Assembly: GCA_014377775.1 (NCBI GenBank) | Contig: JACMOW010000127.1 | Span: 1 to 40,537, forward strand | Direction: 5' to 3' | Length of the DNA: 40,537 nucleotides | DNA from: Pedobacter sp. | GTDB taxonomy: Bacteria > Bacteroidota > Bacteroidia > Sphingobacteriales > Sphingobacteriaceae | Shown: positions 10,787-32,947 of the stretch, in pieces | Position numbering within the stretch: the stretch's first letter is position 1 | Layout: every line of letters starts with the position of its first letter | Notes under the pieces: model-generated | The model's input: only the letters and a program-made list of their open reading frames with translations | Told to the model about the DNA's origin: nothing | Database searches by the model: none | Translations under genes and position numbers: made by a program

Positions 10787-10816
10787 ACTTTGTCAATCTT
10801 TAAAGATTGACAAAGT
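10787..10816. repeat. 30-bp perfect palindrome followed by T-tract on + strand
   Basis: ACTTTGTCAATCTTTAAAGATTGACAAAGT equals its own reverse complement; GTTTTTT follows. Confidence 0.9.
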
Positions 10817-30719: not shown

Positions 30720-31448
30720 ATGGGAAGAGCATTCGAGTTCAGAAAAGAAAGAAAATTTAAACGGTGGGCCAAAATGGCTGTTCAGTTTACACGTATAGGT
30801 AAGGATATTGTGATGGCGGTTAAGGATTCTGGACCCAATCCAGAAACCAACTCTCGTTTACGTACGGCGATGCAAAATGCGAAGGCTGTAAATATGCCCA
30901 AAGATAGGGTAGAAGCAGCAATTAAGCGCGCTTCGGATAAGTCGATGGCCAACTACGAAGAAATAGTTTATGAAGGTTATGCGGCACATGGCGTTGCTGT
31001 TTTAATTGAAACGGCTACTGATAATACCAATCGTACGGTAGCGAATGTTAGAAGCTATTTTAATAAAACCAATGGTACTTTAGGTAAAACGGGTTCATTA
31101 GATTTTGTTTTTAACCGCAAGTCAATTTTCAGATTTGTGCCTACCGATGACTTAGATTTGGAAGAATTGGAGTTTGAATTAATAGACGCTGGCTTAGAAG
31201 AATTATATGTTGAGGCTGATGAAGATGGGAATGATATTGCTGTTGCTCAAGGCCCCTTCGAAAATTTCGGTTCTCTACAAAAGGCCCTAGAAGAAAAGGG
31301 AATTGAGTTAAAAAGTTCGAAATTAGAGCGCATTGCACTTTCTCATCATCCAGTTAATGAAGAACAAGCCGTTGATGTTTTAAAACTAATTGATAAATTG
31401 GAAGAAGACGATGACGTTCAGGCCGTTTATCATAATATGGCAGAATAA
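30720..31448 (+). CDS. YebC/PmpR family protein
   Basis: MGRAFEFRKERKFKRWAKMAVQFTRIGKDI, YEGYAAHGVAVLIETATDNTNRTVANVRSYFNKTNGTLG, DVQAVYHNM. Confidence 0.95.
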   Translation: MGRAFEFRKERKFKRWAKMAVQFTRIGKDIVMAVKDSGPNPETNSRLRTAMQNAKAVNMPKDRVEAAIKRASDKSMANYEEIVYEGYAAHGVAVLIETATDNTNRTVANVRSYFNKTNGTLGKTGSLDFVFNRKSIFRFVPTDDLDLEELEFELIDAGLEELYVEADEDGNDIAVAQGPFENFGSLQKALEEKGIELKSSKLERIALSHHPVNEEQAVDVLKLIDKLEEDDDVQAVYHNMAE

Positions 31449-31454
31449 TTTCCT

Positions 31455-31484
31455 CTACACCTCGCAGGTACCTGCGAGGTGTAG
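31455..31484. repeat. REP-like palindrome, left copy (30 bp, perfect)
   Basis: CTACACCTCGCAGGTACCTGCGAGGTGTAG; 22-bp core shared with the copy at 32144-32169. Confidence 0.93.
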
Positions 31485-31554
31485 TTATTTAAATTGTTGA
31501 AAATCATTAAGATTTTTTCTGGGCTTCTTCCTTCGGTTTCCTTAGTTTTATTTC

Positions 31555-32130
31555 ATGATGATAACAACTGCATTGGATGAAGGATGTTTTTACCACATTT
31601 ATAACCGTGGTAACAATCGAGATGTTCTTTTTAAAGAAAAATCAAACTATCTATATTTCTTGTTATTAATGGAGAAATATGTGCTTCCAGTAGCAGATAT
31701 TTATGCATATTGCTTATTGAATAACCATTTTCATTTTTTGGTTAAGATTCGTGAAGATTATCAGGATAAAGGCTGCAAGCCACAACAAAATTTTTCGAAT
31801 TTCTTTAATGCCTATGCTAAATCATTTAATCAAAAAAACCATAGAACTGGGAAACTGTTTGAAGAAAGGTTTAAAAGGAAGAAGGTTGAAGATGATTTTT
31901 ATTTTACTGAACTCATATATTATATTCATGCAAATCCTCAAAAACACAAATTACTAGCAGATTTTAGGAACTACCAGTACTCTTCTTATTGCGATATCCT
32001 CTCTAATAAAAAAACGTTGCTAAAGAGAGAAGAAGTTTTAGCTTGGTTTGGAGGGAAAAAACTATTCGAAGAATCCCATGCAGATAAACAAATTTCTTTA
32101 ACTGAAGTTTGTTATTTTGAGGATTTATAA
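31555..32130 (+). CDS. REP-associated tyrosine transposase (Y1_Tnp / IS200-like HUH family, RAYT)
   Basis: YHIYNRGNNRDVLF, CLLNNHFHFLVKI (HxH metal-binding motif), NAYAKSFNQKNHRTGKLFEERFKRKKV (candidate catalytic Tyr), YIHANPQKH. Confidence 0.93.
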   Translation: MMITTALDEGCFYHIYNRGNNRDVLFKEKSNYLYFLLLMEKYVLPVADIYAYCLLNNHFHFLVKIREDYQDKGCKPQQNFSNFFNAYAKSFNQKNHRTGKLFEERFKRKKVEDDFYFTELIYYIHANPQKHKLLADFRNYQYSSYCDILSNKKTLLKREEVLAWFGGKKLFEESHADKQISLTEVCYFEDL

Positions 32131-32134
32131 TAGT

Positions 32135-32947
32135 TTATTCACTAGACCTCGCAGGTACCTGCGAGGTCTGGTTTTTTGTTTTGCTAAACAACCACGACAT
32201 TAATTCGGGTTCGGCGAAGGTAGAATCCCAACTGTTGTGGGTTGCTTTTGGGTAAACCGTGAATTTTGGAGTATGACCAACCTTTTTTAAGGCATGATAA
32301 ACATTATAAGAAAGCTGTGGATTAACAACATCATCAAGCCCCCCATGAAAAATCCATAACGGTATTTTTTTATACTTTTTTACATTTGCTACATTGTCGC
32401 CCCCACAAATCGGAAAAGCAGCAGCAAATGTTTTTGGCTTGCGCCTTAAAAGCTCGAAAGTTCCCATCCCGCCCATAGATAAGCCACCTAGATAAATTTT
32501 GGTCTGGTCTGCAAATGTTTTTTTTACTAATTCGTCTGTTAAACCGAGTAAAAGAGACATTGCTTTTGTAGGTGCCCCTCCTGTTAAGAAGTTAAAAAAT
32601 CGCTTGCCGGTTACGGTTTCTATTTCCACATTGGACCAAAAGCTATCCTCTGTACATTGAGGAAAAACCACAATAGCAGAAAATTTCTTCCTGAAATCAT
32701 CAGTTAAGAACATTTTAGAGCCATGTACCAATTGCTTTTCATTATCACTTCCTCTTTCACCACTTCCATGTAAAAAGAGAACAACAGGATATTTTTTTGC
32801 AGCATCGAAATTTTCAGGATATAGAATTCTGTACTTTAACGTATCTGCACCTTTAATAAAATTCTCCTTTTTAAACTTGGATAAATCTTGGGCAAAGGCA
32901 GATGTAAGTACTAAAGAAAAGACAAACAAGGAAATAAGCTTCTTCAT
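32135..32947 (-). CDS. Prolyl oligopeptidase/dienelactone hydrolase-family esterase, exported
   Basis: Signal peptide; YPVVLFLHGSGERGSDNEKQL, IYLGGLSMGGMGTFELL (GxSxG), WIFHGGLDDVVNP. Coding region ends inside the unit boundary. Confidence 0.9.
   Translation of the reverse strand: MKKLISLFVFSLVLTSAFAQDLSKFKKENFIKGADTLKYRILYPENFDAAKKYPVVLFLHGSGERGSDNEKQLVHGSKMFLTDDFRKKFSAIVVFPQCTEDSFWSNVEIETVTGKRFFNFLTGGAPTKAMSLLLGLTDELVKKTFADQTKIYLGGLSMGGMGTFELLRRKPKTFAAAFPICGGDNVANVKKYKKIPLWIFHGGLDDVVNPQLSYNVYHALKKVGHTPKFTVYPKATHNSWDSTFAEPELMSWLFSKTKNQTSQVPARSSE
32144..32169. repeat. REP-like palindrome, right copy (26 bp perfect, extendable to 41-72 via a T-G wobble)
   Basis: AGACCTCGCAGGTACCTGCGAGGTCT followed by GGTTTTTT; possible terminator between the convergent genes. 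Confidence 0.93.

Follow-up and report, generated by a model that had tools for sequence, protein, structure and literature searches.

What connects a small HUH/Y1 protein with the two perfect palindromes that bracket its gene? This question is raised by a locus in the window, by which we mean the whole 40,537-nucleotide stretch of Pedobacter DNA analysed here (Table 1). The arrangement itself, recognized in an earlier sequence-only reading, was confirmed: the two perfect palindromes enclose the 191-codon open reading frame at exactly the coordinates and distances first given, and shuffled windows contained no such pair. The core common to both palindromes is the 22-mer ACCTCGCAGGTACCTGCGAGGT, which matches the window twice at up to three mismatches, against an expectation of 0 from 100 shuffles. 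The two copies have single-stranded DNA folding z scores of -8.0 and -6.9, and no Rfam family was found in the RAYT/palindrome region. The right copy is only partly intergenic, because the C-terminal tail of the convergent esterase-like ORF (..TSQVPARSSE*, 32135-32180) is read from it, and the insertion seems to have replaced an older esterase stop codon. This tail is read in the same way as the PARS linker of the HemF fusions described below. We take the upstream gene to be yebC, following the name given in the sequence-only reading and established knowledge of the family.

Table 1. Features of the RAYT locus in the window.
Feature	Position	Strand	Size and form	Remarks
yebC (YebC/PmpR-like)	30720..31448	+		Synteny; border of the conserved Pedobacter insertion site
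Left palindrome, CTACACCTCGCAGGT / ACCTGCGAGGTGTAG	31455..31484		30 bp, perfect	6 bp past the yebC stop (31448)
RAYT (TnpA_REP-like HUH/Y1 protein)	31555..32130	+	191 aa	Motifs NNHFHF and YYIHANP
Right palindrome, AGACCTCGCAGGT / ACCTGCGAGGTCT	32144..32169		26 bp, perfect	13 bp past the RAYT stop
Esterase-like ORF	32135..32947	-		Second border of the conserved site; function read from the translation

The protein is a RAYT, that is, a TnpA_REP-type member of TnpA_Y1 class 2. Across 41 homologues, His58, His60, and the catalytic Tyr123 are invariant (N57 H58 F59 H60 plus Y123, with the signature YIHANP), and Ser143 and Ser144, downstream of the core, are likewise invariant among the homologues. 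The NCBIfam model NF047646 matches the RAYT with 55 bits, below the cut-off of 80, which bars the equivalog label but not class membership because the model, as far as can be told, rests on other subclasses. While a PDB search with the single RAYT sequence gave no match, a profile of the 41 homologues returned E. coli TnpA_REP (4er8, E 5e-7) as its sole match. For the AF2 prediction of the RAYT (pLDDT 93.7), the best PDB match is again 4er8 (TM 0.60/0.68, E 7.8e-8), followed by IS608/IS200 transposases. The original designation as a Y1_Tnp protein thus holds for the family, through the sub-cut-off NF047646 score, the 4er8 profile match, and the predicted fold, but not for the Pfam entry of that name, since a Pfam scan of the RAYT reached nothing, Y1_Tnp included.

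The palindromes are not confined to the two window sites but belong to a dispersed, mostly intergenic family. In the window genome, a draft that is 88% complete, we found three exact 22-mers and one copy with an 11-nt centre, and a looser pattern brought the count to five. Six Pedobacter relatives with the same RAYT at the same site carry 9-23 copies. Because the relatives' units read ACCTCGCAGGT-TTTNAAA-ACCTGCGAGGT, the family is usually met as a 33-nt palindrome centred on a single nucleotide, in which two inverted mini-hairpins (ACCT-CGC-AGGT) surround TTTTNAAAA; since this centre is present in most of the relatives' copies, the 22-mer query alone undercounts the family. The absence of a loop spacer, stressed in the sequence-only reading, is therefore true of the window copies but not of the usual form, and on sequence comparison the window's loop-less version looks like a central deletion of the 33-nt unit. 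Genome-wide, as counted by pattern searches, the palindrome occurs in 26 of 251 genomes of the family, all within the window's genus, and in none of the 199 sampled genomes from 24 other genera of the family. It is present in all seven sampled genomes with a close RAYT (5-23 copies), as against two or more copies in 13 of the 45 genus genomes without one, a co-occurrence with a Fisher probability of about 6e-4 (hand-calculated and uncorrected for phylogeny). Intergenic positions account for 40 of 41 copies, with median distances of 31 bp to gene 3' ends and 144 bp to 5' ends, based on ORFs rather than annotation. The outer flanks vary (CTAC, CTAG, TTAC, and CAG/CAA in G145), and no conserved GT[AG]G foot was found 5' of the hairpin among the copies. 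Many intergenic regions of Pedobacter, the yebC-esterase gap among them, also share a longer repeat of another kind, ..AAGTCCTCG..CGGGCTTTCC..TTTTGTCGGGT.. (L077-L109, L179-L198).

As judged from sequence comparisons, the strongest evidence is the pairing of each RAYT with a palindrome of its own. The window RAYT, first described as a single-copy transposase, turned out to be one of three diverged RAYTs in its genome; its two paralogues share 44% and 40% identity with it, and the three go with mutually unrelated palindromes, namely ACCTCGCAGGT units for the window RAYT, ACTTTGACAATCTTTAAAGATTGTCAAAGT for the second, and CGTCATCSGATGACG units for the third. The second RAYT (contig C91) is bracketed by its palindrome, a family found at eight places genome-wide, one of which is a solo copy, ACTTTGTCAATCTTTAAAGATTGACAAAGT, in the window at 10787-10816. 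The third paralogue (locus L010, contig C17 of G000, 126-934) is bracketed by units that start with CGTC, whereas De Nocera et al. 2013 (PMC3733652) state of CGTC-tagged REPs, a class in which this family might fall, that no dedicated transposase goes with them. Across the homologues, most adjoin palindromes, and 25 of the 45 unfused ones have the same palindrome in both flanks. Palindrome density reaches 2.66 per kb within 200 bp of the RAYT ends versus 0.08 per kb in the rest of these loci (about 33-fold), and the more alike two proteins are, the more alike are their palindromes (Mantel r 0.53, 0 of 5000 permutations), a relation also supported by the tree. In Pedobacter genomes, the dispersed copies mostly have the form that brackets the resident RAYT, CGC where the bracket is CGC and CGT where it is CGT (p 8e-8, but from few independent lineages).

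The arms of the palindromes hint at how such pairing might be encoded. They typically contain small internal hairpins (ACCT-CGC-AGGT, ACCT-GCA-AGGT, ACTT-ACG-AAGT, AGTAAC-GAG-GTTACT), and the stem length summed over 26 arms is 108 versus 65.7 +/- 3.9 in shuffles, although the arms share ancestry and the cases are not independent. Internal symmetry is weak in some families (CTTTGACAA), and the mini-hairpin fold itself is weak, at -1.1 kcal/mol versus -14.4 for the long hairpin. The unit can be read as a very short REPIN whose loop triplet is its most variable part. By analogy with group 3 RAYTs, in which loop positions are critical for recognition (PMC8266576), specificity may be set by this triplet.

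The closest description in the literature is that of TnpA_Y1 subclass 2.6 (group 5 of Bertels), a mostly Bacteroidetes set with 'atypical secondary structures' (Quentin et al. 2018, PMC6006769). Like that set, the window RAYT and its homologues come from Bacteroidota, from Pedobacter and other members. The window unit has in common with subclass 2.6 the NH-x-H and Y-I-H-x-NP motifs, a downstream Ser-Ser, a length of about 180-190 residues, and GTAG-free flanking structures with copies elsewhere in the genome. It differs in the motif residues, NHFH and YIHANP as opposed to the NH[LIV]H and YIH[QN]NP of the subclass summary table, and in the palindromes, which are strong here (26-33 nt, perfect or near-perfect) whereas the structures are 'weaker' in that paper (PMC6006769). 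Judged against the paper's description of features, the unit would match as subclass 2.6-like. The proposal of a Bacteroidetes counterpart with its own palindrome family is borne out insofar as a Bacteroidota RAYT does go with cognate palindromes, but the group is not new because subclass 2.6 was published in 2018 (PMC6006769). The E. coli REPtron (TnpA_REP, subclass 2.2, 4er8) has a similar fold with HUH and a single Tyr and is likewise a chromosomal gene of low copy number with its own repeats on either side; unlike its REPs, the window palindrome has neither a GTAG foot nor a bulged asymmetric hairpin. Because the palindrome has an identical sequence on its two strands, the choice of strand cannot rest on a foot motif. 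The contrast with classic imperfect REPs, as originally drawn, needs correction, since perfect-palindrome REPs are already known from group 3 RAYTs (Stenotrophomonas, Marinomonas; PMC8266576). Those REPs share perfect stems with the window family and also resemble it in the loop, whose positions are critical for recognition there and which is the variable part here; they differ in being single short hairpins with GTAG, whereas here two inverted mini-hairpins form one palindrome (PMC8266576). In this respect, the unit may resemble REPINs, in which a pair of inverted REP-like hairpins is dispersed as one unit through intergenic DNA (Bertels and Rainey 2011, PMC3116915), but with units of 22-33 nt, a spacer of 0-11 nt, tens of copies at most, and no GTAG (PMC3116915).

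The history of the site bears on whether the repeats depend on the gene. The RAYT occupies the same yebC-esterase gap in P. petrophilus (where the unit is inverted), P. fastidiosus, P. jeongneungensis, P. soli, P. miscanthi, P. paludis, and G158. In many RAYT-less genomes (G061, G191, G182, G115, G110, G105, G154, G224), the gap keeps one, a degenerate, or half a palindrome, a pattern that fits a putative loss of the RAYT between its two palindromes with a solo copy left behind. RAYT presence is scattered on the yebC tree, the middle of which is poorly resolved (18 of 35 inner branches open). Two pairs of sister genomes are informative: G173, without the RAYT, has 40 copies and its RAYT-bearing sister G145 has 22, and G212, without the RAYT, has 23 copies, as does RAYT-bearing G248. 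The repeats thus outlive the protein, and the claim that the transposase maintains them is contradicted on short time scales if a need for the gene is implied. Among six orthologous sites of G145 and G173, four are shared, one is degenerate, and one is present only in G145; as these sites are mostly shared and none is a clean empty site, the repeats turn over slowly and the comparison revealed no transposition event. In G110 (L084, L122, L142, L143), most of the 38 copies are of the CGT form, and the sister genome G105 has a single copy; we read G110 as an expansion for which the enzyme has been lost or has escaped recognition. A search for another RAYT bracketed by the same palindrome in high-copy RAYT-less genomes yielded none among the Y1 loci examined in G110, G173, G061, G182, G191, G212, G150, and G203, covering all NF047646 hits for G110, G173, and G191 and all but a few for the others.

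Persistence of copies where the RAYT is gone is also expected under the main rival explanation, namely that the palindromes are bidirectional intrinsic terminators kept by selection, next to which the RAYT is incidental. Both window copies do score as terminator-like, the right one on the + strand, and copies lie close behind gene 3' ends. However, terminators leave unexplained why homologues are bracketed by palindromes that track the protein sequence, why three paralogues have three palindromes, and why the family does not extend beyond a single genus, and we consider this explanation improbable as the whole account, although terminator function is plausible as a secondary role. Another possibility is that the RAYT and palindromes form a still-mobile IS200-like insertion sequence with the palindromes as its ends, as the matching ends around the gene, the status of Y1 transposases as IS enzymes, and the inverted unit in P. 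petrophilus might suggest. IS200/IS605 elements are recognized by several near-identical complete copies, whereas here each genome has a single copy, which occupies one shared, inherited site in seven of seven genomes with a close homologue, and the nearest paralogues are just 40-44% alike. Solo palindromes moreover far outnumber complete units, and in fold and sequence the RAYT is nearer to TnpA_REP than to IS608 TnpA, which leaves a mobile insertion sequence very unlikely. Least likely of all, and only slightly behind the last, is a dyad binding site of a host DNA-binding protein at which the RAYT inserted, an idea in keeping with the perfect dyad symmetry, the conservation at orthologous sites in sister species, and the persistence without the RAYT, but not with a palindrome that varies across Pedobacter in step with the RAYT, with copies behind genes instead of in promoters, or with three RAYTs in one genome accompanied by three unrelated palindromes.

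We consider it very probable that the locus is a Bacteroidota RAYT/REP unit, subclass 2.6-like, with hairpin recognition and dispersal as its proposed activity. As a plausible mechanism, the site would become single-stranded at the replication fork or on the lagging strand, allowing each strand to fold into a hairpin, either a small one (a 4-bp ACCT/AGGT stem with a 3-nt loop, CGC or GCG depending on the half) or a long one of 13-16 bp. The HUH/Tyr protein would recognise this hairpin, its specificity probably being set by the variable loop triplet, cleave beside it, and occasionally join it elsewhere. The RAYT gene would itself stay fixed at one inherited site, where it could be inverted or be lost between its palindromes to leave a solo copy, while established repeats would persist without the protein and may serve as transcription terminators. 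Counting against this RAYT/REP explanation are the lack of a conserved GT[AG]G foot, the six orthologous G145/G173 sites that revealed no movement, the high copy numbers in genomes without a cognate gene (38 in G110, 40 in G173), and the count of only five copies here.

The homologue survey also revealed a RAYT joined in frame to HemF, the oxygen-dependent coproporphyrinogen III oxidase, at 16 flavobacterial loci (L049, L050, L051, L053, L054, L056-L060, L062, L066, L067, L069, L070, L072; L067 ends at a contig end). The hosts are marine Flavobacteriaceae (Winogradskyella, Seonamhaeicola, Lacinutrix, Flavivirga, Hanstruepera). The HemF part is recognized as PF01218 (E about 1e-134) and NF003727, and the HUH and Tyr motifs are intact in the fused RAYTs, which group together on a single branch in the RAYT tree (support 91). 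The linker is the translated RAYT palindrome (..RPARFEKPARS.. or ..DLSGFENLTG..). No start codon precedes HemF within 21 codons in five fusion loci, and in one of these five, L072, there is none within 40 codons. A literature search, with subscription papers mostly outside its reach, found no earlier report of a RAYT-HemF fusion, which may be a more novel lead than the window locus.

Taken more broadly, and tentatively enough that we would sooner doubt than assert it, Bacteroidota RAYTs could use a GTAG-free code in which the 3-nt loop of a nested mini-hairpin identifies the repeat that belongs to each RAYT. Under such a code, several RAYT/palindrome pairs could share one genome without cross-talk, and some of these RAYTs would have become host proteins, as in RAYT-HemF. 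For a little-studied Bacteroidota RAYT group, the present data provide a clear substrate family and a predicted specificity element, the loop triplet. They also provide natural test material: a genome whose three RAYT/palindrome pairs are apparently separate, sister species that differ in whether they have the gene, and CGC/CGT subtype switches at one conserved locus. Whether a RAYT is needed for the upkeep of its repeats, a general question for REPs, is one that the pairs G145/G173 and G248/G212 are suited to address.
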